Under the pieces are notes generated by a model. The model saw nothing but the letters and a program-made list of their open reading frames with translations, did no database searches and had not been told where the DNA came from. 64,000 nucleotides of DNA from Isoptericola sp. AK164 (GTDB lineage: Bacteria; Actinomycetota; Actinomycetes; Actinomycetales; Cellulomonadaceae): contig NZ_CP119106.1 in assembly GCF_029643425.1 (NCBI RefSeq), forward strand, positions 992,001 through 1,056,000, read 5' to 3'. Shown piece after piece: positions 11,701 through 37,157 of the stretch (its first letter is position 1; every line of letters begins with the position of its first letter). Position numbers and translations under genes: made by a program.

Positions 11701-13536
11701 GAGCACATCCGGCTCGTGGCCGCCTTCGACCACCGGCACGTGTTCGTCGACCCCGACCCGGACGCCGCCATGTCGTTCGCCGAGCGGCAGCGGCTGTTCG
11801 AGCTGCCCGGGTCCACCTGGGCGGACTACGACGCCGACCTGATCTCGCCCGGCGGCGGCGTGTTCCCGCTGTCGGCCAAGTCGGTCCGCGTGACCCCGCA
11901 GATCGCCGAGGCGCTGGGCCTCCCCGAGGGCGTCACCGCCCTCACCCCGACCGAGCTGAAGCGCGCCGTGCTCCTGGCGCCCGTGGACCTGCTCTGGAAC
12001 GGCGGCATCGGCACCTACGTCAAGGCCGCCGCGGAGTCCCACGACGAGATCGGCGACCGGGCCAACGACGCGATCCGCGTCGACGGCGGCGACCTGCGGG
12101 TGCGGGTCGTGGGGGAGGGCGGCAACCTCGGCGTGAGCCAGCGGGGCCGCATCGAGGCGGCCATGGCGGGGGTGCAGATCAACACCGACGCCATCGACAA
12201 CTCCGCCGGGGTGGGCACCTCGGACCACGAGGTCAACATCAAGATCCTGCTCGGTGCCGTGATGCGCGACGGCCGCCTGGACCTGGCCGACCGCAACAAG
12301 CTGCTGCAGTCGATGACCGACGAGGTCGCGGAGCAGGTGCTGCGCGACAACTACGAGCAGAACGTGCTGCTGGGCAACTCGCGGGCGAACGCCGCGGTCA
12401 TGCTGCCGGTGCACGCCCGCCTCATGGACTGGCTCGAGCAGCGCGGAGAGCTCGACCGCGCGCTGGAGGTGCTGCCCGACGTCGCCGAGATCACCCGGCG
12501 CGTCGAGCAGGAGCAGGGCCTGACCCGGCCGGAGTTCGCCGTCCTGGTGGCCTACGCGAAGCTCGCGCTCAAGGAGGACCTCAACGCGACCGACCTCGCC
12601 GACGACCCGTGGTTCGAGCGCACCCTGGCCGCGTACTTCCCGGCGCCGGTGCGTGAGGAGTACGGCGAGGACCTGGCCGCCCACCCGCTGCAGCGCGAGA
12701 TCGTCGTGAACGCCGTGGTGAACTCGATGGTCAACCGCGGCGGCATCACCTTCGCCTACCGGGCCACGGACGAGACGGGGGCCTCGACCGACCAGATCGC
12801 GCGCGCCTTCGTCGCGGCCCGCGAGATCTTCGACCTGCGGGGCTTCGTGGAGGCCGTCGAGGCGACCGACAACGTCGTGGCCACCGCGGTGCAGACCGAC
12901 CTGTACCTGGAGTTCCGCCGGCTGCTCGACCGCGCCGCGCGGTGGTTCGTGCACCACCGCTCCGACGGGCTCGACGTCGGGGCCGAGATCGAGGCCTTCG
13001 CCGGGCCCGTGCGCACCTACGGCTCCCGGCTGGGCGAGCTGTTCCAGGGCGAGGAGCTGCGTCAGTACGCCGAGCAGGTCGAGGCCCTGGAGGCGGCGGG
13101 GTGCGGCCCGGAGCTCGCCCGTCGCGGCGCGAGCCTGCTCGGGGCGCTGCCCCTGCTCGACGTCGCCGAGCTCGCGGAGACCCGCGGCTGGGACCTGGAC
13201 GAGGTGGCGCAGACGTACTTCGCGCTGTCCGGCCGGCTCGGGGTCCCGGACATGCTCACCCGGGTCTCCGCGCTGCCGCAGGACGACCGCTGGGACTCGA
13301 TGGCGCGCGCCGCGCTGCGCGACGACCTCTACGCGGTCACGATCGCCCTGACCGCCTCGGTGCTGGAGGCCACGGAGTCCGGTTCCGCGGTCGAGCGGAT
13401 CGACGCCTGGGTCGAGGACGGGGGCGCGGCCGCCGGCCGGGCGCTCGACGCCCTGGTGACCGCGTCCGGCGTGGAGGATCCGGGTATCGCCACGCTGTCC
13501 GTGGCGCTGCGCCAGCTGCGGTCCCTGGTGCGCTGA
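8761..13536 (+). CDS. gdh: NAD-dependent glutamate dehydrogenase, large (180-kDa) class
   Basis: This 1,591-aa enzyme belongs to the large NAD-GDH family, which oxidises glutamate to 2-oxoglutarate and ammonia. The N-terminal half has the regulatory region typical of the class (TDDAPFLVDSVDGAV near residues 97-111). The dehydrogenase core begins near residue 790 (ARGGLRWSDRREDFRTEV, then KAQMVKNAVIVPTGSKGGF, which carries the substrate-binding and catalytic lysines), followed by the nucleotide-binding part with VGVGDMSGDVFGNGML. The ATG start follows AGAGG. The gene is a single unit ending in a 15-bp tandem repeat and a long palindrome. The opposite strand also stays open along the whole gene, but this is a GC effect. 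Confidence 0.95.
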   Translation: MTDDAVPSPQIQDAVDDLPAELRRCATHLLSAWTDEDATEREPRDIVGAVASTCRFAEQREPGETLVRAFTPTLREDGWTSRRTVVDICTDDAPFLVDSVDGAVARHGGTVHLMQHPVVGAQRDESGRLLEIASRGGRAESWMHLETDRITDAEDRDALEARLRDVVADVHASVDDWAAMRRACLDICTDLRVQPPPTADPDTVAPTIEFLTWLAEDHFTFLGYREYVLEERDGEDVLRPLTHTGLGILRKPTTDIVHLRPEARRTAREPRLLTITKANSRATVHRDVYLDYVGVRTFDHAGNVTGERRIVGMFTSAAYASSVLTLPIVAAKARAVLAASGLAPTSHSGKDLLQVLEQYPRDELFQDTPEHLYAVASQVSRLRERRRSRIFLRPDEFGRFVSALVYLPRDRYTTAVRLRIEALLHQTFSAERVEHTTRVDDSPLAQLHFVVRLPRGTGIPDVDEDELQRGLEDAVRTWSAALVDALHHTHGEEEAAEVLARYGSAFPEAYKEQVEPAAAVGDIRRLDSLSPDDPIAVHLYAPEDADDGVRRLTVASLQEQRLTRVLPMLTDLGVDVLDERPYTIRLADGGTRYLSDFGITAPDPALWEADGAAEALEEAFRAVWSGEAESDALNALVLHAGLAWRDIVVLRAIGRYLRQTGSAFSMEYIDAALIAHPHLATDLVRLFALRFDPDLDVDRDAEVDRAADALLAALDDVASLDHDRILRAFLGVVRATLRTNFYTRDADGAPTPWVSMKFDCARVPDLPRPHPMAEIWVYSPQVEGVHLRFGAVARGGLRWSDRREDFRTEVLGLVKAQMVKNAVIVPTGSKGGFVAKQLPDPGDREAWLAEGRAAYRTFIRGMLDLTDNRDGTEVVPPERVVRHDGDDPYLVVAADKGTASFSDIANEISAEYGFWLDDAFASGGSDGYDHKAMGITARGAWESVKRHFRELDHDTQSEDFTVVGVGDMSGDVFGNGMLLSEHIRLVAAFDHRHVFVDPDPDAAMSFAERQRLFELPGSTWADYDADLISPGGGVFPLSAKSVRVTPQIAEALGLPEGVTALTPTELKRAVLLAPVDLLWNGGIGTYVKAAAESHDEIGDRANDAIRVDGGDLRVRVVGEGGNLGVSQRGRIEAAMAGVQINTDAIDNSAGVGTSDHEVNIKILLGAVMRDGRLDLADRNKLLQSMTDEVAEQVLRDNYEQNVLLGNSRANAAVMLPVHARLMDWLEQRGELDRALEVLPDVAEITRRVEQEQGLTRPEFAVLVAYAKLALKEDLNATDLADDPWFERTLAAYFPAPVREEYGEDLAAHPLQREIVVNAVVNSMVNRGGITFAYRATDETGASTDQIARAFVAAREIFDLRGFVEAVEATDNVVATAVQTDLYLEFRRLLDRAARWFVHHRSDGLDVGAEIEAFAGPVRTYGSRLGELFQGEELRQYAEQVEALEAAGCGPELARRGASLLGALPLLDVAELAETRGWDLDEVAQTYFALSGRLGVPDMLTRVSALPQDDRWDSMARAALRDDLYAVTIALTASVLEATESGSAVERIDAWVEDGGAAAGRALDALVTASGVEDPGIATLSVALRQLRSLVR

Positions 13537-13537
13537 C

Positions 13538-13597
13538 GACGGCCAACCCGCCGACGGCCAACCCGCCGACGGCCAACCCGCTGACGGCCAACCCGCT
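13538..13597. repeat. Tandem repeat, 4 x 15 bp, after gdh
   Basis: Four head-to-tail copies of GACGGCCAACCCGCC begin 2 nt after the gdh stop; the last two end in CT instead of CC. The final six bases of copy four form part of the left arm of the adjoining palindrome. The unit length is a multiple of three, yet the block is outside the coding frame. Replication slippage is the likely origin. Confidence 0.85.
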
Positions 13598-13659
13598 GTG
13601 GGCATGAAATCTGCAGTCCTCTATCGGTGGAGGACTGCAGATTTCATGCCCACAGCGGG
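13592..13659. repeat. Long palindromic element, copy 1
   Basis: Perfect 29-bp arms flank a 10-nt loop CTATCGGTGG. Each arm contains the core TGTGGGCATGAAATCTGCAG. It lies between the convergent gdh and thiolase genes, 6 bp past the thiolase stop, so it can end transcription from both sides. The same core and the loop motif CGGTGG recur at 37094-37157, which marks it as a dispersed element rather than a chance terminator. Confidence 0.85.
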
Positions 13660-13665
13660 CCGGGG

Positions 13666-14886
13666 TCAGGCCTCCAGCAGCAGCGCTTCGCCCTGTCCGC
13701 CGCCCCCGCACAGCGCGACGGCGGCGCGGACGCCGGTCTCGCCGTCGGCCCGGCGGCGGGCCAGCTCGTGCGCGGCGTGCACGGCCAGGCGTGCGCCGGA
13801 CGCCCCGATGGGGTGCCCGAGCGAGATGCCGCCGCCGTGCGGGTTCACGATCTCCGCCGGCAGCCCCAGCACGCGGGCGGACGCCGCGGACACGACGGCG
13901 AAGGCCTCGTTGATCTCGACGTGGTCGAGGTCCTCGGCCGTCCAGCCCTCGCGGCTCAGCGCCGCGGTGATGGCGTTCGCCGGCTGGGAGTGCAGGGAGG
14001 TGTCCGGCCCGGCCACCTGCCCGGCCGAGCGCACGGTCGCCAGCACCGGCACGCCGACCGCTTCGGCGCGCGAGCGCGTGGTCAGCACCAGCGCGGCGGC
14101 GCCGTCGGAGATCTGCGAGGCGTTGCCCGCCGTGATCGTGCCCTCGGCGGAGAACGCCGGGCGCAGCCGCGCCAGGCTCTCGGACGTGGTGTCCGCGCGC
14201 ACCCCCTCGTCGGAGGAGACCACCACGGGGTCGCCCTTGCGCTGCGGCACCTCCACCGGCGCCAGCTCGGCGGTGAACACACCGTCCTTGGCGGCGCGGG
14301 CGGCCCGCTGGTGCGAGGCCGCCGCCACCGCGTCCTGCTCGGTGCGGTCCACGTGCACCGAGCCCGTGTTGTGCTCCTCGGTGCTCAGGCCCATCGCCTG
14401 GCCGTCGAACGCGTCGGACAGCCCGTCGCGGGAGACGGCGTCGAGGAGCGTGGCGTCTCCGTAGCGGAAGCCCGCCCGGGCGCCCGGCAGCAGGTGCGGG
14501 GCGTTCGTCATCGACTCCTGGCCGCCGACGAGCACCACGGACGCCTCGCCGGTGCGCAGCAGCCGGGCCCCGTCGACGACGGCGGTGAGCCCGGACAGGC
14601 ACACCTTGTTGACGGTCACCGCGGGCACCGTCATCGACACCCCGGCGGCGACGGCGGTCTGCCGGGCCGGGTTCTGCCCCGCGCCGGCCTGGAGCACCTG
14701 GCCGAAGACCACCGTGTCGACGTCGGCGGCGAGCGCACCCGCCTGCTCCAGCGCGGCCCGGGCCGCCACGGCGCCGAGCTGCACCGCCGAGAGCGAGGCG
14801 AGGGAGCCGCCGAGGCGCCCCTGCGGGGTCCGGGCGGCGGAGACGACGACCACGTCGTCGGGTCGCAGGTCGGTCGTGCTGGTCAT
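13666..14886 (-). CDS. Acetyl-CoA acetyltransferase (thiolase)
   Basis: This 406-aa thiolase splits acetoacetyl-CoA with CoA to two acetyl-CoA. Motifs seen are the nucleophile Cys96 in NKVCLSG, NEAFA, GHPIGASG (active-site His) and a C-terminal CGGGGQG with the second catalytic Cys. It is the last gene of the 13-gene operon, and its ATG overlaps the upstream hydrolase stop as ATGA. In this context it completes conversion of acetoacetyl-CoA to acetyl-CoA for the nearby glyoxylate shunt. The small active-site loop (VCLSG) is typical of biosynthetic/degradative acetoacetyl-CoA thiolases; long-chain activity is less likely. Confidence 0.95.
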   Translation of the reverse strand: MTSTTDLRPDDVVVVSAARTPQGRLGGSLASLSAVQLGAVAARAALEQAGALAADVDTVVFGQVLQAGAGQNPARQTAVAAGVSMTVPAVTVNKVCLSGLTAVVDGARLLRTGEASVVLVGGQESMTNAPHLLPGARAGFRYGDATLLDAVSRDGLSDAFDGQAMGLSTEEHNTGSVHVDRTEQDAVAAASHQRAARAAKDGVFTAELAPVEVPQRKGDPVVVSSDEGVRADTTSESLARLRPAFSAEGTITAGNASQISDGAAALVLTTRSRAEAVGVPVLATVRSAGQVAGPDTSLHSQPANAITAALSREGWTAEDLDHVEINEAFAVVSAASARVLGLPAEIVNPHGGGISLGHPIGASGARLAVHAAHELARRRADGETGVRAAVALCGGGGQGEALLLEA

Positions 14887-16016
14887 GAGGCTCGCTCCTC
14901 GTCGTCGAGGGCGGGGCCGGGATCGCCGGCGGCCGCCACGGGCTCGATGGTCCGGACGGGGGCGCGCACGGCGTCCACGACGAGCGCGAGCACCTCGTCC
15001 GGGCTCTCCAGGTGCGGCGAGTGGCCCACGCCGGAGAGCACGACTTCACGGTACGCCCCGCCGCGGGCCGCGTAGTCCTCCAGCACGGCCCGGGTCTGGC
15101 CGACCATCGGCTGCGGCGGGCACGCCTGGACCCCGGGCCACCCGGGCACGGCCCCCAGCGCCCCGAGCTGGGCCAGGTCGAGCGCCGAGGTGTCCGAGAC
15201 GATCGCGTCGGCGTCGCCGCGGACCCACAGCACCGGGGGCTGCGGGGTGACCGCGGCGAACCCGGACAGGTCGAGGTAGCGCGGGGAGATCGCGTTGTTC
15301 ATGCCGCGGGTCCCCGGCGCCACGGACGGCCAGCGGTCCGACGGCGTCAGGTCGCCCGGGTAGTGGTCCGGCCCGGTGCGGGTGCTGAGCACGGAGTCCA
15401 GCAGCTCCTCCTCCTGGTCGGCGATCGTGGCGGGGTCGGCGACGTAGACCCCGCGCAGGACGCCGCGGGGCGACCCCGGCTCGTGGGAGCGGTCGCCCGC
15501 GGCGATGGCGGCCACGAAGTCCGGGTTGGCGGTGCCGCCGCCGGACCCGGCGTGGTCCGGGGACGTCGGCGTCCCCGCCAGGTCCCGGGTGCCCCCGAAC
15601 CCGTACGGGGACATCGGCGCCTCGAGCACCAGCGCCGCGAACCGCACGGCGTCGTCGATCGCGAGCTGCAGCACCACCCCGGCGCCGGCCGAGTGGCCGA
15701 GCGCCGTCAGCGGGGGAGCACCGGGGGAGTCCAGCCCCAGCGCCGCGACCACCGCTGCCACGTCGTCGGCGAGGTCGCGCATCCCGCGCGTGGCGTCGAT
15801 CGGCAACGGCTCGCTGTCGCCGAACCCGCGCAGGTCCACGGCCACGCCGCGCACGTCGTCGGGCAGCGCCGCGAGCAGGCGGGCGAAGAAGGCCGACGAC
15901 GAGCAGTTGCCGTGCACGCACAGCAGAGTCGCCGCACCGCCCGGGCCGGTGTCGCGCACGTGGAACGTGCCCCGGGACGTGGTGACGTCGCTGCGGTGGA
16001 CCGGACGCCCGCTCAC
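14883..16016 (-). CDS. Alpha/beta hydrolase (first of two in the operon)
   Basis: This 377-aa protein has the alpha/beta hydrolase fold: an oxyanion-hole motif HGNCSS (about residues 35-40), nucleophile elbow GHSAGA with Ser109, and a C-terminal [11 protein letters not shown] that supplies the catalytic His. There is no signal peptide, so it acts in the cytoplasm. The GTG at 16016 overlaps the stop of the CoA-transferase B gene as GTGA, and its own stop overlaps the thiolase ATG, so translation is tightly coupled. Its place among ketone-body enzymes suggests an ester or lactone of a short hydroxy- or oxoacid as substrate. The closest-looking family is 3-oxoadipate enol-lactonase-like, but no protocatechuate genes are present. 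Confidence 0.85.
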
Positions 16017-16714
16017 GCGGTGCCCCCGACGGCCGCCGGCGGGCGCACGGCGTGCGGTGCCGCCGCCAGCGGGGAGTCGTCCAGCTCGACGGTGATCTCC
16101 GGCTCGGTGCGCTCGCGGACCTCCTCCTCGGTCACGCCGGGGGCGAGCTCGCGCAGCACGAGGCCGTCGGGGGTGACGTCGAGGACGGCGAGGTCGGTGA
16201 TGATGCGGTGCACCACCTCCCGGCCCGTCAGCGGCAGCGAGCACTCGTGCACGATCTTCGGCGACCCGTCCCGGGCGGTGTGCTCCATGACGATGATGAG
16301 CCGGGCGGCACCGTGGACGAGGTCCATGGCGCCCCCGGGGCCCTTGATCATCTTGCCGGGGATCATCCAGTTCGCGAGGTCGCCCGTGGCCGAGACCTGC
16401 ATCGCCCCGAGGATCGCGGCGTCGATCTTGCCGGCCCGGATCATGGCGAAGCTCGTCGCCGAGTCGAAGATCGCCGCGCCGGGCAGCGTGGTCACGGTCT
16501 GCTTGCCGGCGTTGATGAGGTCGGGGTCGACCTCGTCCTCGGTGGGGAACGGGCCGACGCCCAGGATGCCGTTCTCGCTCTGCAGCACCAGGTGCTTGTC
16601 CGCCGGCACGTAGTTCGGCACCAGCGTGGGCAGGCCGATGCCGAGGTTCACGTACCAGCCGTCGAGCAGCTCGCGGGCGGCGCGGGCGGCCATCTCGTCG
16701 CGGGTGAGCGCCAT
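16013..16714 (-). CDS. scoB: 3-oxoacid CoA-transferase subunit B
   Basis: This 233-aa beta subunit carries the catalytic glutamate (Glu47 in [11 protein letters not shown]), which forms the enzyme-CoA thioester. The start ([19 protein letters not shown]) and the segment [14 protein letters not shown] are typical of succinyl-CoA:3-ketoacid CoA-transferase subunit B. With subunit A, 3 nt upstream, it transfers CoA from succinyl-CoA to acetoacetate. The C-terminal tail of about 15 residues is Ala/Pro-rich. An acetate CoA-transferase role cannot be excluded, but the linked 3-hydroxybutyrate dehydrogenase and thiolase favour acetoacetate. Confidence 0.94.
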
Positions 16715-16717
16715 CGC

Positions 16718-17590
16718 TCAGCCCTCCTTCCGTGCGGTCGTGCCGTTGCTGGAGTCTGCGGTGCCGTCCGGGGACGCGTCCTCGCGCACCGTGCGGCGCT
16801 CGATCCGCTTCTCGATGTCGGGGCCGACGACGACCATGCGGTGCACGAACACCCCGGGCAGGTGGACGTCGTCGGGGTCGATCTCGCCGGGCTCGACCAG
16901 CTCCTCGACCTGGGCCACGCAGACACGGCCGGCCATCGCGGCCAGCGGCGTGAAGTTGCGCGCCGAGCGGTGGAAGACGAGGTTGCCGAACCGGTCGCCC
17001 TTGGCGGCGTGCACCAGCGCGAAGTCGGTGCTGATCGCCTCCTCGAGGACGAACTCCTGGTCGTGGACGCCGTCGGCCGCCGCCACGGGGAAGGTGCGGA
17101 TCTCCTTGGCGGGGCTGCCGACCGCGATCCCGCCGGCGCCGTCGTACCGGCGCGGCAGACCGCCGTCGGCCACCTGCGTGCCGACGCCGGTGCGCGTGTA
17201 GAACGCGGCGATGCCCGCGCCGCCGGCGCGCAGCTTCTCGGCGAGCGTGCCCTGCGGGGTGAGCTCGACCTCGAGCTCGCCGGTGAGGAACTGGCGCTCG
17301 AACTCCTTGTTCTCGCCGACGTACGACGACGTCATCTTGCGGAGGCGTCCGGCGTTCAGCAGGACGCCGAGACCCCAGTCGTCGACGCCGCAGTTGTTGC
17401 TCACGACCGACAGGTCGCTCGTGCCCTGGGCCAGCAGCGCCTCGATCAGGGCGATCGGGTTGCCGCACAGGCCGAACCCGCCGACGGCGAGCGAGGCGCC
17501 GTCCGGGATGTCGGCCACGGCCTCGGCCGCGCTGCCGACGACCTTGTCGAGCCCGGTCGGCTCGGCGGCCGGGGGAAGGGGTGTGCTCAT
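16718..17590 (-). CDS. scoA: 3-oxoacid CoA-transferase subunit A
   Basis: This 290-aa alpha subunit has the family hallmarks DGASLAVGGFGLCGNP near residues 30-45, VSNNCGVDDWGLG and TGVGTQVADG. It pairs with the B subunit next door. It is somewhat longer than usual (about 230-250 aa): a hydrophilic tail of about 20 residues follows RRTVRED. Its ATG overlaps the upstream alpha/beta hydrolase stop (ATGA). It acts in the cytoplasm in ketone-body use, joining 3-hydroxybutyrate dehydrogenase to thiolase. Confidence 0.94.
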   Translation of the reverse strand: MSTPLPPAAEPTGLDKVVGSAAEAVADIPDGASLAVGGFGLCGNPIALIEALLAQGTSDLSVVSNNCGVDDWGLGVLLNAGRLRKMTSSYVGENKEFERQFLTGELEVELTPQGTLAEKLRAGGAGIAAFYTRTGVGTQVADGGLPRRYDGAGGIAVGSPAKEIRTFPVAAADGVHDQEFVLEEAISTDFALVHAAKGDRFGNLVFHRSARNFTPLAAMAGRVCVAQVEELVEPGEIDPDDVHLPGVFVHRMVVVGPDIEKRIERRTVREDASPDGTADSSNGTTARKEG

Positions 17591-18564
17591 CGGACCTCCT
17601 CGGTGCGGGCGCCCAGCAGGGCGCGCGTCTCCGCCGCGACGGCGGCGCTGCCGTCACGGCCCATGATGATCGTGTAGTGGTTGACGTCCGGCACGTCGCG
17701 GGGCCGCAGCGCCGGGGCCCGCTGGGTCCAGCGTGCCATGTGCGCGGGGTCGTACAGCGGGCTCGGCTCGTCCAGCAGTCCGCGGGGAGCCCGCAGCAGC
17801 GTCGTCGGCCGCTCCAGGCGGGCCAGGGCGCCCGCGACCGGCCCGCCGTCGTGCAGGTCGAGGGCGTCGGCGGCCACCGCCTCCGGGTTCGACGCCGGGC
17901 GCAGGCCGTCCGGCGTGGCCACGAGGTCGTAGTCGACGTAGTCCAGCACGGCCGGCCCCCACACGGCGGTGAACGCCGGGTGCTGCGACCAGAAGGACTG
18001 GTAGGCCTCCGCGTCGGGGAACGTGCGCCGCAGCCGGTCGGCCGCCGGGCCGAGCACGGCCCGCAGGCGCTCGGCCGGTGTGGCCGCGGGATCGAGCCCG
18101 GGCGGCTCGGGCAGGGGCACGCCGCCGTCGACGAGCAGCAGGCCCGCCACGACGTCGGGGTGCCGGTCGGCGAGGGTCACGGCGACGAAGCCACCCATGG
18201 AGTGCCCGAGCACCGGCACCGGGCCGTCGGCCACGGCCCGGGCCACCGCGGCGACGTCGTCGGCGTGCCGGGTCATGCCGCAGGGACCGGGCAGGTCGCG
18301 GCTGCGCCCCCGGCCGCGCAGGTCCGGCGCCACGACCCGCACGCCGGGCAGCTCCCCGGCCAGCAGCGGCCAGGCCAGGTGCGAGGCGGTGATGCCGTGC
18401 ACCGCCAGCAGGGTCGGGGCGTCGGGCGCGACGACGCCGTCGGCGTCGACCGGGTCCCACACGCCCACCCGCAGCGCACCGCCGTCGACCGGGACGTCGA
18501 GCGTCCGGTAGCGGTGCCCGGGCACGACGTGCCGCAGCGCGACGGCGTCCGGCGCGGCGGTCAC
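17587..18564 (-). CDS. Alpha/beta hydrolase (second of two in the operon)
   Basis: This 325-aa alpha/beta hydrolase shows the oxyanion motif HGITASHLAW (56-65), DLRGRGRSRDLPGP (81-94), nucleophile elbow GHSMGG with Ser122, and a late DVNHYTIIMG that likely holds the catalytic His. I chose the GTG at 18564, which overlaps the dehydrogenase stop as GTGA. There is no signal peptide. It differs clearly from the other hydrolase in the operon, so the two probably act on different bonds of one substrate, for example an ester and a thioester or lactone. The exact substrate cannot be told from sequence. Confidence 0.85.
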   Translation of the reverse strand: MTAAPDAVALRHVVPGHRYRTLDVPVDGGALRVGVWDPVDADGVVAPDAPTLLAVHGITASHLAWPLLAGELPGVRVVAPDLRGRGRSRDLPGPCGMTRHADDVAAVARAVADGPVPVLGHSMGGFVAVTLADRHPDVVAGLLLVDGGVPLPEPPGLDPAATPAERLRAVLGPAADRLRRTFPDAEAYQSFWSQHPAFTAVWGPAVLDYVDYDLVATPDGLRPASNPEAVAADALDLHDGGPVAGALARLERPTTLLRAPRGLLDEPSPLYDPAHMARWTQRAPALRPRDVPDVNHYTIIMGRDGSAAVAAETRALLGARTEEVR

Positions 18565-19316
18565 TTGGCGCTCCAGCCGCCGTCGACGGTCCACGAGGCC
18601 CCCGTGACCATCCGGGCGGACGGCCCCGCGAGCCAGGCGACCAGCTCGCCGACCTCCGCCGGCTCGGTGAGCCGCTTGATCGCCGACTCGGTCAGCAGCA
18701 CCTTCTCCAGCACCTCGGACTCGTCGATGCCGTGCACCCGGGCCTGGTCGGCGATCTGCTTCTCGACCAGCGGCGTGCGCACGTAGCCCGGGTTGACGCA
18801 GTTGCTGGTGACCCCGTGCGGGCCGCCCTCCAGCGCGGTGACCTTCGACAGGCCCTCGAGGCCGTGCTTGGCCGCCACGTAGGCGGACTTGAACGGCGAG
18901 GCGACCAGCCCGTGCACGGAGGAGAGGTTGACGATGCGGCCCCAGCCGCGCTCGTACATCCCCGGCAGGGCCGCCCGGACCAGCAGGAACGGCGCCTCGA
19001 GCATGATGCGCTGGATGAGCCGGAACGCGTCGGGGTCGAACTCCTCGATCGGGCTCACCCGCTGGATGCCGGCGTTGTTGACCAGCACGTCGGCGTCGAG
19101 CGTCAGGTCGTCCAGCGCGGCGGTGTCGGCCAGGTCGACCACCCAGGCCTCCCCGTCGACGTCGGCCGCGACGCGCTTCGCCGCCTCGGCGTCGCGGTCC
19201 GCGACGACCACGTGGGCCCCGCGGGCGGCCAGCGCCGCCGCGCAGGCCGCGCCGATCCCGCTGCCGCCGCCGGTGACGACGGCGCGGCGGCCGTCCAGGT
19301 ACGTCTCGGTGCTCAT
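18561..19316 (-). CDS. bdhA: 3-hydroxybutyrate dehydrogenase (SDR family)
   Basis: This 251-aa short-chain dehydrogenase oxidises 3-hydroxybutyrate to acetoacetate with NAD. It has the Rossmann motif TGGGSGIG (15-22), NNAG, and the catalytic Ser133, Tyr146 and Lys150 (YVAAK). The segments NAGIQRVSPIEEF and HGLVASPFKSAYVAAKHGL are characteristic of bacterial D-3-hydroxybutyrate dehydrogenases, which makes this the most informative gene for the operon's purpose. The ATG overlaps the TetR stop (ATGA). Confidence 0.93.
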   Translation of the reverse strand: MSTETYLDGRRAVVTGGGSGIGAACAAALAARGAHVVVADRDAEAAKRVAADVDGEAWVVDLADTAALDDLTLDADVLVNNAGIQRVSPIEEFDPDAFRLIQRIMLEAPFLLVRAALPGMYERGWGRIVNLSSVHGLVASPFKSAYVAAKHGLEGLSKVTALEGGPHGVTSNCVNPGYVRTPLVEKQIADQARVHGIDESEVLEKVLLTESAIKRLTEPAEVGELVAWLAGPSARMVTGASWTVDGGWSAK

Positions 19317-19963
19317 GCGGACGGTCCTTCCTGGGGCGCCAGCGCCCGTTCGATGAACTGCATGGTCTGGGCGAAGACGTCCTCGGGGATCTCCGGGAGC
19401 CGGTCGTCCTGCCCCGGCCCGCCGCCGTCGGCCGGGCCGTCGGCCCCGCCCCACAGCACCCAGCGCATCCCGACGATCTCGCCGATGCCCATCAGCGCCC
19501 AGGCGGCCACGGTGGGGTCGACGTCGCCGACCTCGCCGTTCGCCCGCGCCTTGTCCAGTCCGGTGACGTACCCCTCGACGATGCGCTGGTAGTGGCGGCG
19601 CAACGCGTCCGGTGCGACGAACTCGGCCTGCCGCACCACCCGGTACAGCGCGGGGTGCTCGGCGGTGAACCGGAAGAAGGCGCGGAACCCGGCTCGCTCC
19701 GCCTCCAGGCGGTTGGACGCCTGGGAGCTCGCCTCGTACATGGCCTGGCGCACGCGCTGGTTGAGGTCGTCCACGAGCTCGACGAAGACGGCGTGCTTGC
19801 CCTCGAAGTACAGGTAGAAGGTGCCCATCGCGACGCCGGCGGCCTCGGTGATCTTCACGATCGAGGCGTCGTGGTAGCCCAGGTCCGCGAACACCTGCTC
19901 GGCGGCGGCGAGGATCTTCGCGCGGGTCCGGTTCCCGCGGGCGGTGCGCGGCGCGTTGCTCAT
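19313..19963 (-). CDS. TetR/AcrR-family regulator
   Basis: This 216-aa protein has an N-terminal TetR helix-turn-helix (TRAKILAAAEQVFADLGYHDASIVKITEAAGVAMGTFYLYFEGK region, residues 13-55) and a ligand-binding C-terminal part. It sits inside the operon between the acyl-CoA ligase and the dehydrogenase, with stop-start overlaps on both sides, so it is co-expressed with the genes it probably controls. A CoA ester or the imported acid is a plausible effector. It would likely bind upstream of the binding-protein gene near 26.24 kb. Confidence 0.9.
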   Translation of the reverse strand: MSNAPRTARGNRTRAKILAAAEQVFADLGYHDASIVKITEAAGVAMGTFYLYFEGKHAVFVELVDDLNQRVRQAMYEASSQASNRLEAERAGFRAFFRFTAEHPALYRVVRQAEFVAPDALRRHYQRIVEGYVTGLDKARANGEVGDVDPTVAAWALMGIGEIVGMRWVLWGGADGPADGGGPGQDDRLPEIPEDVFAQTMQFIERALAPQEGPSA

Positions 19964-21492
19964 CGGGCCTCCTCGGTGCGGGCACGCAGGGCGTGCCGGG
20001 GGATCTTGTGCAGGGACGTGCGGGGCAGCGCGTCGACGAGCGCGAACCGCTGCGGGACCTTGAAGTGCGCGAGCTCGGCGCGGCAGTACGCCTCCAGCTC
20101 CTCGGCGTCCGTGGCGTACCCGGCCCGGGGCACGACGAAGGCGTGCCCGACCTCGCCCCACCGGTCGTCGGGCACCCCGACGACGGCCGCCTCGGCGACG
20201 CCGGGGTGCCGGTGCAGCACCGCCTCGACCTCGGCCGGGCTGACGTTCTCCCCGCCGACGATGAACAGGTCCTTGAGGCGGTCCACGATCCGGTGGTAGC
20301 CGTCGGCGTCCCGCTCGACCAGGTCCCCGGTGCGCAGCCAGCCGCCCGCGAACGCCTCCGCCGTGGCCTGCGGGTCGCGGAAGTACCCGGCGAACAGGCC
20401 CGGCCCCCGCACCAGCAGCTCGCCGGTGGCGGCGCCGTCCAGGTGCTCGCCGGTGGCCGGGTCGGCGATCGCGACGTCCACGTGCGGGTACGGCTTGCCG
20501 GCCGACCCGGGGCGCTCGCGGGCCTCGTCGTCGGGCAGGCACAGGACGTTGGGTCCGGCCTCGGTGAGGCCGTACCCCTGGGTGAGGGCGACGCCGCGGC
20601 GGTGCCACGTGCGCAGCAGCGGTTCCGGCATCGGCGCCCCGCCCACGACGGCGGTGCGCAGCGAGGACAGGTCGGTGCGGGCGAAGCCGGGGTGCTCGGC
20701 CAGCAGCAGGTACTGGGTGGGCACGCCCATCATGGTGGTGACGTGCCGTTCGGCGATCAGACGGAGCACCCGCTCGGGCTCGAAGGTGCGCTCGAGCACG
20801 ACGGTGGCCCCGCTCCACCAGGCCAGCAGGGGCTGGATGTTCCACCCGCCCGCGTGGAACTGCGGCAGGACGCTGAGGACGACGTCGTCGTGCGACATCT
20901 CGACCGTGCGCGAGAAGGCCAGGTTGGTCCAGAAGCAGCTCGCGTGGGTCAGCACGGCGCCCTTGGACCGGCCCGCGGTGCCCGAGGTGAACAGCAGCAG
21001 CAACGGGTCGTCGTCCTGCACGTCGCGCTGCTCGCCGGGGCCCTCGTCCCGGCGTCGCGAGGGCGGCGGCACCGCGGCCTCGACGCCGGAGCGGCCCAGC
21101 CCGGTGGACCGCGGCGGCAGGACGAGCCGGTCGAGCGCCGCCGCGGCCAGGGTGGCGAACTCCTGCTCGACGAGGACCAGGGCCGGGTCCGCGCGGTCGA
21201 TCTGGTCCGCGAGCTCGCGGGGGGAGGAGCGCCACGACAGCGGGGCGAGCACGAGGCCTGCCTGGGCGCAGGCGAAGAACAGCACGACCTGGTCGGCGCT
21301 GTTGCCGGTGACGGTGGCGACGCGGTCGCCGACGCCGTAGCCCGCGGCGCGCAGCGCGCCGGCGAGCTGCGTGGCCCGGTCGTCGAGCTCGGCGTAGGTG
21401 AGCGTCACCCCGCGGTCGTCGACGGCGACGCGGTGCGGTGTCGACGTCGCCCGGTCGCGCGTCCAGCGCCCCAGCGTGTGCAGCCCCGTCAT
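19960..21492 (-). CDS. AMP-forming acyl-CoA ligase
   Basis: This 510-aa member of the acyl-adenylate/CoA ligase family activates a carboxylic acid to its CoA ester with ATP. The P-loop-like motif is LFTSGTAGRSKGAVLTH, followed by YGLTEAGPN, GWLRTGDL and the C-terminal KDLFIVGGENVSP; the catalytic Lys lies in SLHKIPR near the end. It resembles medium- or short-chain acid ligases. It overlaps livM upstream and the TetR gene downstream (ATGA both). As acetoacetate is handled by the CoA-transferase, this ligase presumably activates another part of the substrate, or the imported acid itself. Confidence 0.92.
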   Translation of the reverse strand: MTGLHTLGRWTRDRATSTPHRVAVDDRGVTLTYAELDDRATQLAGALRAAGYGVGDRVATVTGNSADQVVLFFACAQAGLVLAPLSWRSSPRELADQIDRADPALVLVEQEFATLAAAALDRLVLPPRSTGLGRSGVEAAVPPPSRRRDEGPGEQRDVQDDDPLLLLFTSGTAGRSKGAVLTHASCFWTNLAFSRTVEMSHDDVVLSVLPQFHAGGWNIQPLLAWWSGATVVLERTFEPERVLRLIAERHVTTMMGVPTQYLLLAEHPGFARTDLSSLRTAVVGGAPMPEPLLRTWHRRGVALTQGYGLTEAGPNVLCLPDDEARERPGSAGKPYPHVDVAIADPATGEHLDGAATGELLVRGPGLFAGYFRDPQATAEAFAGGWLRTGDLVERDADGYHRIVDRLKDLFIVGGENVSPAEVEAVLHRHPGVAEAAVVGVPDDRWGEVGHAFVVPRAGYATDAEELEAYCRAELAHFKVPQRFALVDALPRTSLHKIPRHALRARTEEAR

Positions 21493-22652
21493 GCCGACTC
21501 CTCGATCGTCTCCCGTGCGGCCTCGCGCTGCCGGTCCCGGCCGGACCGGTGGGCCAGCCGCTGCGCCGCGCCGGCGATCCCGCCGGGCAGGAACAGCACC
21601 ACGAGGACGAACAACGTTCCCAGGATGAACAGCGGTTCGCTCAGGGGCACGCGCAGGACGGACGGCAGCCCGGCGATCGCCTCGGAGGAGGCCAGCGCAC
21701 CGAGTCGCTGGTCGAGCAGCGTGTACAGCACGCCGCCGACGACGGCGCCCCACCGCGACCCGACTCCGCCGAGCACGACCATGACGAGCAGGGTGAGCGT
21801 GAAGTCGGCCGACGTCACCCGCGGGACGGCCCCGGACTGCAGCAGCAGGTAGGCCATGCCGACCCCGGTGGCCAGGGTGGCCGCGACGACGAAGACGAGC
21901 AGCTTGACCAGGTAGGGGCGTCCGCCGACGACGCGCACGCGCATCTCGTTCTCGCGGGTCGCCGCGGCCACGTGGCCGGCGCGGGAGCGCTCGACCCACA
22001 GCACGATCGCGTAGACGACGACCAGGACGGCCAGGGCGAGCCAGTAGAGGTTGCGCGTGTTCGCCACGCCCACGAGGGCGTCGGGGACGTGCGCGGTGTC
22101 CAGGGCGAGGCCCTCCTCGCCGCCGGTGGCACCGGCCGGGTTGCGACGGACCAGCACGTTGCCCGCCTGGGCGAACGCGAGGGTGACCATCGCGAACGAG
22201 ATCCCGGTGACCCGCAGCGAGATCGCCCCCACGAGGTGCGCGACGGCGATGCCGCCGACGAGCACGACGCAGGCGGCCGGCAGCAGCGGCAGGTCCGTGC
22301 GGTCCAGCACGATCGCCAGCCCGTAGACCCCGACGGCGAAGTACAGCGCGTGCCCGAAGCTGAGCAGCCCGGCGACGCCGAACAGCAGGTGGTAGCTCAG
22401 GGCCAGGGCCCCGACGAGGAGCGCCAGGGCGAGGACCTGCAGGGTGCCCGGGGTGTAGGTGGGGCCGGGCAGCACGCCGGGCAGGGAGATGGCGAGCAGC
22501 GGCAGGCAGGCGAGCAGGACGACGAGCCCGAGCCCGATGGCCGGCGGGAGCCAGCGGCGTCGTGCCGGCACCGTGCCACCGTCGTCGGCGGGCAGCGGGG
22601 CGGTCTCGTCGGACCGGGGCGAGGACTGCTGGGTGGTCGGCGTGGTGGTCAT
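21489..22652 (-). CDS. livM: Branched-chain-type ABC transporter permease (LivM-like)
   Basis: This 387-aa inner-membrane permease has about 9-10 hydrophobic segments and the family block LLFGVAGLLSFGHALYFAVG. A charged N-terminal extension of about 30 residues (rich in T, S and D) precedes the first membrane segment. It is paired with LivH (stop-start overlap) to form the channel of a HAAT-type importer. Its linkage to hydroxybutyrate enzymes suggests that it imports a short organic acid or ester instead of amino acids. Confidence 0.92.
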   Translation of the reverse strand: MTTTPTTQQSSPRSDETAPLPADDGGTVPARRRWLPPAIGLGLVVLLACLPLLAISLPGVLPGPTYTPGTLQVLALALLVGALALSYHLLFGVAGLLSFGHALYFAVGVYGLAIVLDRTDLPLLPAACVVLVGGIAVAHLVGAISLRVTGISFAMVTLAFAQAGNVLVRRNPAGATGGEEGLALDTAHVPDALVGVANTRNLYWLALAVLVVVYAIVLWVERSRAGHVAAATRENEMRVRVVGGRPYLVKLLVFVVAATLATGVGMAYLLLQSGAVPRVTSADFTLTLLVMVVLGGVGSRWGAVVGGVLYTLLDQRLGALASSEAIAGLPSVLRVPLSEPLFILGTLFVLVVLFLPGGIAGAAQRLAHRSGRDRQREAARETIEESA

Positions 22653-23521
22653 GCTCTCCTCCCGAGGAGGCCGGAGGGACGGACGAGCAGCACGAGCGCC
22701 AGGAGCAGGACGACCACGAGGTCGCCGTAGCCCCAGTAGTAGTTGGCGAACTGCTGCAGGACCGCGACGAGGACGGCGGCGACCGCGGCGCCGGTCAGCG
22801 ACCCGAGCCCGCCGATGACGGTGACGATGAAGGCGAAGATGAGCAGCTGGGCGCCCAGGTGCGGCGAGACGTACCCGAAGTACTGGGAGGCGAGCACCCC
22901 GCCGAGGCCCGCGGCCGCGCCGCCGACGGCGAAGACCAGCGTGAACGCCTTGCGGACGTCGATGCCGAGCGCCGTGACCATGGCGCGGTTCTCCACGCCG
23001 GCCCGGATGATCAGGCCGAAGCGCGTGTAGCGCAGGAACAGCACGATGCCGACGAGGACGAGGACGGCCGCGCCGATCGCGAGGAACCGGTCGTTGGGGA
23101 CGGGGGCGCCGGCGACGTCGGTGGTGCCGCGCAGCCAGGCGGGACCCTCGATGAACTCGGGGTCCGAGCCCCAGGCCCCCTCGAACAGGGCGACGGTCGC
23201 CAGGGCGAGGCCGACGGTCACCAGGACCTGCTCGATGTGGCGTTCGTAGAGGCGCCGGACCAGCAGCAGCTCGGTGAGGGCGGCGAACGCGGCCCCGACG
23301 CCGGCGCCGACGACGAGCGCGAGGCCGAAGACGGCCCAGCTGTCGGCGCCGAGCCGGCGGGCCACCTCCCACCCGGCGAAGGCGCCGAGGGTGAGGAACG
23401 ATCCGTGGGCGAAGTTCAGCACGCCCATCAGCCCGTAGATGAGCGACAGCCCGGAGGCGACGAGGAAGTACAGCGCACCGAGGCCGAGCCCGGTGATCAG
23501 CAGCAGGACGATCGTGCTCAT
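22649..23521 (-). CDS. livH: Branched-chain-type ABC transporter permease (LivH-like)
   Basis: This 290-aa membrane protein has the typical LivH start (GLGLGALYFLVASGLSLIYG) followed by LMGVLNFAHGSFLTLGAF, and about eight membrane segments. The ATG overlaps the livF stop; the stop overlaps the livM start. It forms the membrane pore with LivM. Confidence 0.93.
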   Translation of the reverse strand: MSTIVLLLITGLGLGALYFLVASGLSLIYGLMGVLNFAHGSFLTLGAFAGWEVARRLGADSWAVFGLALVVGAGVGAAFAALTELLLVRRLYERHIEQVLVTVGLALATVALFEGAWGSDPEFIEGPAWLRGTTDVAGAPVPNDRFLAIGAAVLVLVGIVLFLRYTRFGLIIRAGVENRAMVTALGIDVRKAFTLVFAVGGAAAGLGGVLASQYFGYVSPHLGAQLLIFAFIVTVIGGLGSLTGAAVAAVLVAVLQQFANYYWGYGDLVVVLLLALVLLVRPSGLLGRRA

Positions 23522-24231
23522 GCGGCGTTCTCCGAGGTGTGCACGCCCAGCAGGCGCTGGATGCGGTCGGGGTCGTCGAGCAGCTCTGCGGCGTCGCCGG
23601 TGTGGACCACGCGGCCGGCGTCGATGACGACCACGGTGGTGGCGAGCCGTTCGATGACCTCGAGGTTCTGCTCGACCAGGAGCACAGGAGCGGTCGCGGC
23701 TGCCTCGGCGAGCGCCGTCGCGACCTCCCCGACGATCTTGGGCGCCAGGCCCTTGGTCGGCTCGTCGACGAGGAGGAGGCGGTTGTCGTTGAGCAGCGCC
23801 CGGGCCAGGGAGACCATCTGCTGCTGACCGCCGGAGAGCGTGCCCGCGCGCTGCGCGGAGCGCTTGACGAGGTCGGGGAACAGGTCGGCCACGAGCTCGC
23901 GGCGCGGGGCGGCGTCCCGTTCGGCCAGGCGCAGGTTCTCCGCGACGGTCAGGCCCGCGAAGACCTCGCGGTCCTCCGGGACGTAGCCGACGCCGCGGCG
24001 CACGATGCGGTCGGTGCTCAGCCGGTCGATGCGCTCGCCGGCGAGGGTCACCTCGCCGGTGCGGGCGTAGAGACCGAGGAGCGCCTTGAGGGTGGACGTC
24101 TTGCCGACGCCGTTGCGGCCGAGGACGGCCGTGACGCCGGTCGCGGGGACGTCGAAGGTGACGTCCTCGACGACCTGCTGGCCGGCCACGGTGGCGCGCA
24201 GGTTCGTCACGCGCAGGATCGGCTCGGTCAC
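23518..24231 (-). CDS. livF: ABC transporter ATPase (LivF-like)
   Basis: This 237-aa ATPase has Walker A GRNGVGKTST, signature LSGGQQQMVSLARAL, Walker B LLLVDEPTKGLAPKI and a switch His-like segment near LLVEQNLEV (LivF has Q in this place). The GTG at 24231 overlaps the livG stop as GTGA. It powers the importer together with LivG. Confidence 0.95.
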   Translation of the reverse strand: MTEPILRVTNLRATVAGQQVVEDVTFDVPATGVTAVLGRNGVGKTSTLKALLGLYARTGEVTLAGERIDRLSTDRIVRRGVGYVPEDREVFAGLTVAENLRLAERDAAPRRELVADLFPDLVKRSAQRAGTLSGGQQQMVSLARALLNDNRLLLVDEPTKGLAPKIVGEVATALAEAAATAPVLLVEQNLEVIERLATTVVVIDAGRVVHTGDAAELLDDPDRIQRLLGVHTSENAA

Positions 24232-25007
24232 GCGACGTCTCCCAGGTAGGCGCTCTGGACGGTGGGGTCGGACATCACGGCCTCCGGTGTGTCGTAGGCG
24301 AGCAGCTCGCCGTGGTGCATGACGGCGACCCGGTCCACGAGCCCGAGGACGACGTCCATGTGGTGCTCGACCATGAGCACGGTGCGGCCGCTGCGGTGCA
24401 GCCGGCGGATGACCTCGCTGAGCCCGGGCACGTCCGAGGAGGAGACCCCGGCCATGGGCTCGTCGAGCAGGATGACGCTCGGGTCGGTGGCCAGCAGGAC
24501 GGCGATCTCCAGCTTGCGCTTGTCCCCGTGGGAGAGGTCGCCGGCGGCGACGCCGAGGCGGTGCTCCAGGCCCACCTCGGCGAGGTGCTCGACGGCACGC
24601 CGGGTGGCGGCGTCGCGCCGGTGCGGGAACGCCAGCACCGACAGGCTGCGGCCCAGGTGCATCTGGGCGGCGAGCCGGACGTTCTCGAGCACGTCCAGAC
24701 GCGGGAAGACGCTGGAGGTCTGGAAGGTGCGGCCCAGCCCGGCACGGGCCCGTCGGGCGACCGGGTCGCCGGTGACGTCGCGGCCGTCGATGCGGACCGT
24801 GCCCGTCGTGGGGCGCAGGACCCCCGAGACGAGGTTGAACAGCGTCGTCTTGCCGGCACCGTTGGGGCCGATGACGCCGATCATCTCGCCCGGCGCGACC
24901 TCGAGGGTCACGTCGTGCAGGATCTGCGCGCCACCGATCTGCAGGCCGAGGCCGTGGGTGGCGAGGGCGGGCACGGTGCGGTCCGTGCCGGGCTGGTGGT
25001 GCGGCAT
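24228..25007 (-). CDS. livG: ABC transporter ATPase (LivG-like)
   Basis: This 259-aa ATPase has Walker [12 protein letters not shown], the LivG-type block GLGRTFQTSSVFPRLDVLENV, Walker B VILLDEPMAGV and H-loop LMVEHHMDVV. The signature is changed: LSHGDKRKLEIA stands where LSGGQQR is usual, a variant common in LivG proteins. The ATG at 25007 lies 2 nt after the binding-protein stop and is preceded by a 15-residue polar N-terminal stretch. Confidence 0.95.
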   Translation of the reverse strand: MPHHQPGTDRTVPALATHGLGLQIGGAQILHDVTLEVAPGEMIGVIGPNGAGKTTLFNLVSGVLRPTTGTVRIDGRDVTGDPVARRARAGLGRTFQTSSVFPRLDVLENVRLAAQMHLGRSLSVLAFPHRRDAATRRAVEHLAEVGLEHRLGVAAGDLSHGDKRKLEIAVLLATDPSVILLDEPMAGVSSSDVPGLSEVIRRLHRSGRTVLMVEHHMDVVLGLVDRVAVMHHGELLAYDTPEAVMSDPTVQSAYLGDVA

Positions 25008-25009
25008 CG

Positions 25010-26215
25010 TCAGTCGGCCTCCGGCGGGGCGACCGCGTCGGCGGGCACCTCGTCGACGAGCTCGGGCATCCAGGAGCCGTCGGTCTCGACCAGGCCGACC
25101 TGGTACATCGGCTGCAGCACCGCGTGGTCGGTCTCGCGGATCGTCGTCGAGCCCTTGGGGCCGTCGAACGTCCAGCCCTCCAGCGCGCCGACCATGGCGT
25201 CGACGTCGTCGCCGCCCTCGGCGATCGCGTGCACGATCATCTGCGCCGCGACGAAGCCGTCGGGCGTGAACAGGTCGGGCGTCCCGCCGGCCTCCTCGAC
25301 CGCCGTGACCATGGCGTCGTTGACCTCGTTGTCCGGTGCGCCGGGGAAGTAGTGGTTGAGGAAGTCGACCTTGGCCGCGGCGTCGCCGTAGGCGTCGTAG
25401 GTGGCGGCGTCGCCGAGGCCGGTGACCACGGTGGTGGCGTCGAGGACGCCCTGCTGGTCGAGGCCCTGCCACATCGCGCCCGACGACGCGCCCGCCCAGG
25501 CGACGAAGACGAGGTCGGGGTCGGCGTCGATCACCTGACGGGCGAACGGCGTGAACTCGGTGGCGTCCTCGGGCACGAGGATGCTGTCGACGTCGGCGCC
25601 CTGGGCACCGAGGACGCCGTCGACGGCGGCGAGGTTGCCCTGGCCGAACGCGGTGTCCTGGGCGAAGACGAGCACCTTCGCGCCGTCGGGCTCGACGAAC
25701 GTGCCGGCCGTGGCGACGTCCTGCAGCGACTGCCGGCCGGAGCGGAACGTGTAGTCGTTGATGCCGGTGATCGCGTCGGCGGCGGCGGGGCCGGAGACGT
25801 AGAGCACCTGGTTCTGCTCGGCCTGCTCGGCGAGCTTGAGCGCGATGCCGGAGGAGACGGTGCCGCCCATGATCTGCACGCCCTGGCCGATGATGTCCTT
25901 GGCGTGGTTGACGGCCTTGTCCGGGTCGCCGGCGTCGTCGAGGTAGGTGACCTCGATCGGCTGCCCGTCGACCTCGCCGGTGCCGTCGGTCGCGTAGTCG
26001 AGGCCGGCCTCGAAGCCCTGGTGGTAGGCCTCGCCGTAGGCGGCGAGCGGTCCGGTCTTGGAGTAGATGATGCCGACCTCGACGGGTTCGGCCGCGGCGC
26101 TCTCGCCGCCGTCGTCGGTGCCGCCGACCCCGCCGTCCGCCGGTGCGCACGCAGCGAGCGCCAACACCGTGACGGCAGTGGTGGCCAGTGCGAGGGACTT
26201 CTTCGTGACCCGCAT
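25010..26215 (-). CDS. Lipoprotein substrate-binding protein of the Liv-type importer
   Basis: This 401-aa protein begins with a lipoprotein signal: basic MRVTKK, a hydrophobic core, and lipobox LAAC with Cys23. The mature part starts with an acidic linker and then fits the periplasmic-binding-protein class for branched-chain amino acids, amides and short acids (VEVGIIYSKTGPLAAYGEAYHQGFEAGLDY begins the fold). It captures the substrate outside the cell for LivHMGF. It is the first gene of the 13-gene operon, with GAAGGGCAG as its ribosome binding site. This protein would decide the transported substrate; sequence alone does not reveal it. Confidence 0.93.
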   Translation of the reverse strand: MRVTKKSLALATTAVTVLALAACAPADGGVGGTDDGGESAAAEPVEVGIIYSKTGPLAAYGEAYHQGFEAGLDYATDGTGEVDGQPIEVTYLDDAGDPDKAVNHAKDIIGQGVQIMGGTVSSGIALKLAEQAEQNQVLYVSGPAAADAITGINDYTFRSGRQSLQDVATAGTFVEPDGAKVLVFAQDTAFGQGNLAAVDGVLGAQGADVDSILVPEDATEFTPFARQVIDADPDLVFVAWAGASSGAMWQGLDQQGVLDATTVVTGLGDAATYDAYGDAAAKVDFLNHYFPGAPDNEVNDAMVTAVEEAGGTPDLFTPDGFVAAQMIVHAIAEGGDDVDAMVGALEGWTFDGPKGSTTIRETDHAVLQPMYQVGLVETDGSWMPELVDEVPADAVAPPEAD

Positions 26216-26237: not shown

Positions 26238-26261
26238 TCACCCGCCAAACATGACAGGTGA
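26238..26261. promoter_or_regulatory. Inverted repeat TCACC-N14-GGTGA upstream of the operon
   Basis: The arms lie 23-46 bp upstream of the first gene of the operon. On the transcribed strand the block reads as two near-repeats, ATACCTGAATCACCTG. It is a candidate TetR operator or promoter overlap; the arms are short, so confidence is low. Confidence 0.25.
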
Positions 26262-26374
26262 TTCAGGTATGAGGATCTTGTCGGGCGACGCGTCCGGATG
26301 TCAAGACGGTGGCCCCGGGATCGGGTCACGATCCCGTCACGAACCGGTCGTGCAGCCCGCCGCCCGGGCAGCAC

Positions 26375-37093: not shown

Positions 37094-37157
37094 CGTTGTG
37101 GGCATGAAATCTGCAGGTCAGCAGGCGGTGGCGACTGCAGATTTCATGCCCACAACG
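37094..37157. repeat. Long palindromic element, copy 2
   Basis: Perfect 23-bp arms surround an 18-nt loop that contains CGGTGG. The arms share the 20-bp core TGTGGGCATGAAATCTGCAG with the element at 13592-13659. It stands between the convergent ABC-F and xseA genes, 26 bp after one stop and 20 bp after the other, and can serve as a two-way terminator. Confidence 0.85.

Follow-up and report, generated by a model that had tools for sequence, protein, structure and literature searches.

A TetR-linked Liv-type importer operon of Isoptericola sp. AK164 as a probable utilisation system for products of poly(3-hydroxybutyrate)

Poly(3-hydroxybutyrate) (PHB), which many bacteria store as a reserve polymer, also serves as a bioplastic. 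According to a passage of a 2021 review, an uptake transporter for 3-hydroxybutyrate is not known from soil bacteria, except for the presumed transporter HbuT of Bacillus subtilis (PMC8000602). The words transporter and uptake are absent from a 2025 review on the biodegradation of polyhydroxyalkanoates (PHA; PMC11893044), and the idea of secondary consumers of PHB products, named 'continuers', appears in another paper (PMC13372988). In the literature covered, with subscription papers mostly outside its scope, we found no description of an ATP-binding cassette (ABC) importer that takes up 3-hydroxybutyrate or oligomers of it, nor of the gene cluster reported here. This cluster is a 13-gene operon in a stretch of 64,000 nucleotides (hereafter the window; positions 992,001 to 1,056,000 of contig NZ_CP119106.1) of Isoptericola sp. 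AK164, whose genome is a single 3.58-Mb contig. It encodes a Liv-type importer, an acyl-CoA ligase, a TetR-family regulator, two alpha/beta hydrolases and a route from 3-hydroxybutyrate to acetyl-CoA. We consider it probable that the operon serves the utilisation of PHB products, by import, oligoester cleavage and oxidation to acetyl-CoA under the control of TetR.

The 13 open reading frames all lie on the minus strand, from 26215 to 13666, and are nearly gap-free (Table 1). The longest frame of hydrolase 1 begins at 18594, and a shorter start, the GTG at 18564, gives a 4-bp overlap with the preceding gene. With this start, 4-bp stop-start overlaps are found at 10 of the 12 junctions, and the remaining two are gaps of 2 bp (between the genes of the solute-binding protein, SBP, and LivG) and 3 bp (between CtfA and CtfB). 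The SBP is of the Peripla_BP_6 family, and the same operon encodes a pair of Liv permeases and a pair of Liv ATPases, as in importers of the hydrophobic amino acid transporter (HAAT) type; the Liv genes follow in the order G, F, H, M. The 3-hydroxybutyrate dehydrogenase scored 314.1 bits against the NCBIfam model TIGR01963 (cut-off 307.05); of the 18 matches to this model in the window genome, no other exceeds the cut-off. The CoA-transferase subunits likewise passed theirs (CtfA 233.8 bits against TIGR02429, cut-off 128.5; CtfB 329.1 bits against TIGR02428, cut-off 243.55), as did the thiolase. A first-pass annotation of the sequence had described 13 genes on one strand with mostly 4-bp overlaps and a full dehydrogenase, CoA-transferase and thiolase route, and both descriptions were borne out.

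To place the operon among relatives, we searched named genomes with a profile of the SBP. This yielded 495 relatives, and the analysis used the best 80 loci among them, which are the nearest kin and no random sample. The nearest named relative at the locus is Isoptericola chiayiensis, with an SBP that is 97% identical, and by record title most carriers belong to the Micrococcales and some to the Propionibacteriales. Gene content was counted by tblastn (identity of at least 40%) in those 71 of the 80 loci whose sequence extends 9.9 kb or more past the SBP. The SBP and LivG, F, H and M were found in all 71 loci, hydrolase 1 in 70, and ligase and TetR in 68. The dehydrogenase was found in 58, hydrolase 2 in 52, CtfA in 47, CtfB in 45 and the thiolase in 38, the last being an undercount, as the fetched loci end 10 kb past the SBP. 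Conservation of the whole cluster as a unit, on which the first-pass annotation had made its proposal depend, was thus found for a constant core of importer, ligase, TetR and hydrolase 1, while the ketone-body enzymes (dehydrogenase, CoA-transferase and thiolase) are a variable and separable part. In Promicromonospora loci, for instance, the dehydrogenase lies behind a LysR gene and a major facilitator superfamily (MFS) symporter gene, apparently as a separate unit. The spread of the SBP is patchy: it was found in 26 of 221 genomes of a family sample, in 44 of 396 genomes of an order sample that overlaps with it, and in 4 of 18 genomes within the genus, the window's own included.

Two side observations concern the relatives. 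At a distance of 5 kb from its cluster, on the opposite strand, Cellulomonas fimi has a second pair of genes for a dehydrogenase and a hydrolase 2, which are 62% and 51% identical, respectively (L046, 3176-5123). The SBPs of three loci titled Sphaerisporangium cinnabarinum, Sphaerimonospora mesophila and Acidobacteria metagenome-assembled genome (L040, L066 and L047) nest among Cellulosimicrobium, Promicromonospora-type and Ornithinimicrobium sequences, which points either to mislabelled or contaminated records or to transfer.

In 15 of the 80 loci the cluster adjoins a gene of one esterase family (f16). In 13 of these loci the gene lies divergently upstream of the SBP; in the other two, from Nocardioides, it follows hydrolase 1 directly. 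The 13 divergent loci come from Cellulosimicrobium, Promicromonospora, Antribacter and Myceligenerans and from records labelled Sphaerisporangium and Sphaerimonospora. All three f16 members scanned exceeded the NCBIfam cut-off for the extracellular type-1 short-chain PHA depolymerase (NF050058), and Pfam assigned all four members scanned to Esterase_PHB. In addition, a crude test found a hydrophobic run near the N-terminus in 15 of 15 f16 proteins. In nine aligned members the C-terminal end is a conserved stretch, some 60 residues long and bounded by Cys, at the position at which substrate-binding domains lie in the PHA depolymerase architecture outlined in PMC11893044.

Adjacency of f16 requires three changes on the SBP tree. 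A profile made from nine f16 members was searched in the two genome samples. In the family sample, f16 was found in 18 of the 221 genomes; all 18 are among the 26 SBP carriers, and in 17 of them the gene lies beside the SBP by coordinates. Since genomes of one genus are not independent, the fair figure is that by genus: all five genera with f16 are among the seven of 25 genera that have the SBP (P about 4e-4). In the order sample, the three genomes with f16 (of 396) are all among the 44 SBP carriers (P about 0.0013).

A second link between depolymerase and importer was found in the upstream regions. A palindromic motif search over 83 such regions returned a 22-bp motif close to AACCTGAATCACCTGTCAGGTT, and 75 of the 83 scored above the 99th percentile of shuffled regions (simple letter shuffles). 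In the window genome the palindrome occurs only once at up to one mismatch, before the operon, where it lies between a TTGACA sequence and the SBP start; a promoter scan upstream of the operon gave no full sigma-70 match. Among the scorable loci, the palindrome is present in 71 of 71 with TetR and in 0 of 5 without it, counts that hold partly by construction, as the motif was learned from these same upstream regions, which tempers their value for the reading proposed here. From the 83 loci, 70 have TetR, ligase and the palindrome before the SBP, five have none of the three and seven are too short to score, including one (L088) in which none of the three was seen. The remaining locus (L057) has TetR and ligase, with the palindrome before CtfA, the first gene of a CtfA-CtfB-thiolase-SBP run. 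The joint state of TetR, ligase and palindrome takes five changes on the SBP tree, with four independent pairs on well-supported branches, and the three were lost together in at least about four to five independent events. Two additional loci (G229 and G137) have both TetR and the palindrome.

The palindrome also lies within the shared upstream region of all 13 divergent depolymerase loci. Moreover, C. fimi (G022) has a copy scoring 23.8 bits on another contig, where it precedes the likely start of an unlinked depolymerase gene by 134 bp. In G229 it occurs (L137, 1501-1520, contig C12) 60 bp before the ATG of an unlinked MFS symporter gene, whose product is 63-70% identical to the MFS proteins adjoining the dehydrogenase unit or the SBP in other loci; this gene is likely a further member of the regulon. 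Judged by the predicted operator, depolymerase and importer operon would be under shared regulation.

As a background, 1.62 Mb of sequence outside the SBP upstream region contained three weight-matrix sites above 10 bits, including the operon head of L057. A pattern search of 24 genomes found eight palindrome-like places outside the clusters versus five for the reversed control, which is near background. Among three extra sites inspected, only that of the MFS gene was readable. A palindrome-like site on contig C2 of G022 had no pathway gene nearby, and one in G419 precedes genes for Liv-type ATPases that belong to another importer. No pattern match was obtained in two of the 24 genomes, G410, whose coordinates match the TetR-less locus L064, and G137, in which the weight matrix did find a site before the cluster. 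Some TetR-less loci carry other genes beside the SBP, at around 8-10 kb, namely LysR in L106, MFS in L074 and the two together in L088; these are of the same families as those of the Promicromonospora dehydrogenase unit. In L064 neither is among the genes listed. A regulator swap in TetR-less clusters is possible.

Because a secreted PHB depolymerase adjoins the cluster in some relatives and shares its palindrome, PHB is the likely source polymer. Several observations weigh against the reading of the operon as a system for PHB products. The profile search found no f16 depolymerase in the window genome, and f16 is missing from 8 of the 26 SBP carriers of the family sample, including all four Isoptericola, and from 41 of the 44 of the order sample. 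The broad NF050058 family is not enriched among SBP carriers of the order sample (9 of 44 versus 58 of 352 others at E 1e-30, Fisher P 0.52; above the cut-off, 5 of 44 versus 32 of 352). NF050058-like enzymes include sugar esterases, and the top PDB matches were an esterase of the PHB-depolymerase family and, after it, acetylxylan and feruloyl esterases. The C-terminal 69 residues of f16 matched no Pfam family. Furthermore, Agromyces allii (G351; L091 by coordinates) has a depolymerase without a palindrome within 20 kb around the gene, and some carriers of the importer have no dehydrogenase.

A role in mobilising the cell's own stored PHB was rejected. In 26 carriers scanned, the window organism included, no PHA synthase was found with PhaC_N, the only synthase class searched, while the control Caulobacter was positive; exogenous PHB is therefore the likely source. 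Since neither a PhaC_N synthase nor an f16 depolymerase was found in the window organism, it would have to rely on products released by others, on another enzyme or on another source of 3-hydroxybutyrate. The best NF050058 match in its genome lies outside the window, at 975991-976731 of the contig, with 114.2 bits against a cut-off of 150. This gene has a 567-residue frame that appears by eye to be a membrane phosphatase fused to an esterase.

Regarding the ligand of the importer, the SBP scored 58.7 bits against the LivK/LivJ model, far below its cut-off of 477, and none of the five Liv-type proteins reaches the cut-off of a named LivGHFMKJ or Urt model. In Leu-type binding proteins a Glu presumably contacts the amino group of the ligand. 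In the HMMER alignment to the Leu-type protein 4n0q, this Glu is replaced by Thr265, which is invariant in the SBP; in a MAFFT alignment with LivK and LivJ of E. coli, the Glu falls two columns away from Thr265. The replacement is only suggestive, and would speak against a plain binder of branched-chain amino acids. A plain branched-chain amino acid transporter was rejected on the low score and on Thr265 in the HMMER alignment. We consider it very improbable that ordinary uptake of these amino acids merely shares the operon with ketone-body genes by chance: the HAAT architecture and the weak match to the LivK/LivJ model would fit such a function, whereas the distance from the cut-off, Thr265 and a gene context free of amino acid catabolism do not.

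For the substrate, the first-pass annotation had proposed a composite molecule, such as an oligomer, ester or lactone of hydroxybutyrate or a larger acid yielding acetoacetate. The coupling of a dedicated importer to the ketone-body route and the linked PHB depolymerase agree with a composite substrate of the hydroxybutyrate type and make the connection to PHB a strong one, while oligomer and monomer are not separated by them. Most likely, the Liv-type proteins would carry oligomers rather than the monomer, because hydrolase 1 is near-constant with the importer and neither hydrolase has a secretion-like N-terminus (by the crude test, a hydrophobic N-terminal run in 2 of 71 hydrolase 1 and 0 of 52 hydrolase 2 sequences). 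Oligomers are also favoured because the serine motif is mostly kept, as GHSMG in 66 of 71 hydrolase 1 and as GxSxG in 45 of 52 hydrolase 2 sequences, and because other candidate monomer carriers adjoin the importer in some relatives. Both enzymes are general alpha/beta hydrolases by family scan and stay below the cut-off of the intracellular PHA depolymerase model NF050089 (300 bits), hydrolase 1 with 37.4 and hydrolase 2 with 74.1 bits.

Alternatively, the importer could carry monomeric 3-hydroxybutyrate, together with acetoacetate, and the hydrolases could have a different task, for example on thioesters or lactones. No hydrolase is required to get from 3-hydroxybutyrate to acetyl-CoA, and most characterised short-chain depolymerases degrade to monomers, as stated in a section of PMC11893044, which is a further point against oligomer import. 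We nevertheless regard monomer import as unlikely: hydrolase 1 is more constant than the dehydrogenase, and both the short-chain fatty acid transporter gene within the cluster of one Georgenia locus (L043) and the MFS symporter gene beside the importer in Promicromonospora would be redundant if the Liv-type proteins carried the monomer.

More doubtful still is that the importer carries a different ester or a larger acid, such as a hydroxyacyl or acetoacetyl ester, which would yield 3-hydroxybutyrate or acetoacetate, with the depolymerase link being secondary. This would account for the ligase, which is needless in a pure PHB route and yet is present in most loci, and whose best PDB match is a feruloyl-CoA synthetase. 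The best PDB relatives of the SBP include 3n0x/3nnd, and R. palustris proteins are also among its PDB relatives, with ligands that we take to be aromatic acids. Depolymerase adjacency, co-occurrence at the genome level and the shared palindrome all stand against it. With PHB oligomers as the favoured cargo, the joint presence of ligase and TetR suggests that the ligase makes the inducer; alternatively, it may directly activate 3-hydroxybutyrate in those carriers that lack the dehydrogenase.

The sequence-based observations, namely gene content, coupling, conservation, depolymerase linkage, the tie of the palindrome to TetR and its occurrence before an unlinked depolymerase gene and an unlinked MFS gene, lead us to propose the following mechanism. 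Secreted depolymerases, a cell's own in some relatives and probably those of neighbours for the window organism, would cut extracellular PHB to 3-hydroxybutyrate and short oligomers. The SBP lipoprotein and LivGFHM would then import PHB-derived acids, most likely oligomers, and in the cytoplasm hydrolase 1, plus hydrolase 2 where present, would cleave the oligoester to 3-hydroxybutyrate. The dehydrogenase would oxidise this to acetoacetate, CtfAB would convert acetoacetate to acetoacetyl-CoA, and the thiolase would release two acetyl-CoA. TetR is predicted to repress the operon at the 22-bp palindrome just upstream, until released by a pathway metabolite, possibly the CoA ester from the ligase. 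In this scheme we infer the importer substrate, the functions of the ligase and the two hydrolases, the repression and the inducer. More tentatively, a dedicated ABC importer for 3-hydroxybutyrate oligomers, with a local TetR sensing a ligase-made CoA ester, may be the missing PHB uptake step of Gram-positive soil bacteria, a proposal that we put forward as possible rather than probable.

Downstream of the operon, the inverted repeat behind the thiolase gene is a copy of a dispersed palindromic repeat of about 65 bp, GTGGGC(A/G)TGAAATCTGCAG ... CTGCAGATTTCA(T/C)GCCCAC. The window holds two copies, at 13597-13654 and 37094-37157, and the genome about 40 places, a lower bound counted from 80 rows over both strands with 40 of 66 candidates scored. 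The first copy sits between the thiolase gene and a convergent large gene (8761-13536). The repeat could be a REP-like (repetitive extragenic palindromic) terminator or a mobile element.

Table 1. Features of the operon and its flanks, in positions of the window
Feature	Position	Strand	Basis and remarks
SBP, HAAT-type solute-binding lipoprotein	25010..26215	-	Peripla_BP_6; Cys near residue 23 nearly invariant
LivG-type ATPase	24228..25007	-	Family scan
LivF-type ATPase	23518..24231	-	Family scan
LivH-type permease	22649..23521	-	Family scan
LivM-type permease	21489..22652	-	Family scan
Acyl-CoA ligase (AMP-binding)	19960..21492	-	Family scan; present or absent jointly with TetR
TetR-family regulator	19313..19963	-	Family scan
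3-Hydroxybutyrate dehydrogenase	18561..19316	-	TIGR01963, over cut-off
Alpha/beta hydrolase 1, proposed ester (oligomer) hydrolase	17587..18564	-	No signal peptide seen
3-Oxoacid CoA-transferase subunit A (CtfA)	16718..17590	-	TIGR02429, over cut-off
3-Oxoacid CoA-transferase subunit B (CtfB)	16013..16714	-	TIGR02428, over cut-off
Alpha/beta hydrolase 2	14883..16016	-	No signal peptide seen; among named families, closest by score to intracellular PHA depolymerase, far below its cut-off
Acetyl-CoA C-acetyltransferase (thiolase)	13666..14886	-	TIGR01930, over cut-off
22-bp palindromic operator TACCTGAATCACCTGTCATGTT, predicted TetR site	26248..26269	-	Motif search; binding predicted
TTGACA, possible -35 box	26299..26304	-	Sequence reading
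Perfect 25-bp inverted repeat with 8-base loop, possible terminator	13597..13654		3' of last gene; copy of dispersed genomic palindrome

If the proposed function is right, the locus provides candidates for the importer and for intracellular hydrolases of the oligomers, along with a regulator whose predicted site is defined, and many of the actinobacteria that carry it may be secondary consumers of PHB breakdown products. The closest described systems each match a part of it. With the HAAT (Liv-type) importers, including the urea (Urt) and aromatic-acid members, the operon shares an SBP, two permeases and two ATPases with the expected domains, but it differs in its scores below the cut-offs of the named models and in the hydroxybutyrate catabolism encoded with it. 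Its ketone-body enzymes are like those of the known route, all above subfamily cut-offs; the difference lies in the dedicated ABC importer, two hydrolases, ligase and TetR, and in that these enzymes are separable from the importer core. The neighbouring gene of relatives passes the cut-off of the secreted type-1 short-chain PHA depolymerases, whereas this gene is outside the operon of the window and was not found in its genome. Uptake of 3-hydroxybutyrate has also been proposed for HbuT of B. subtilis, which differs in being described, in the relevant passage, as a membrane transporter that belongs to early sporulation (PMC8000602). The parts of the operon are of known kinds, and it is their combination and regulation that appear to be new.

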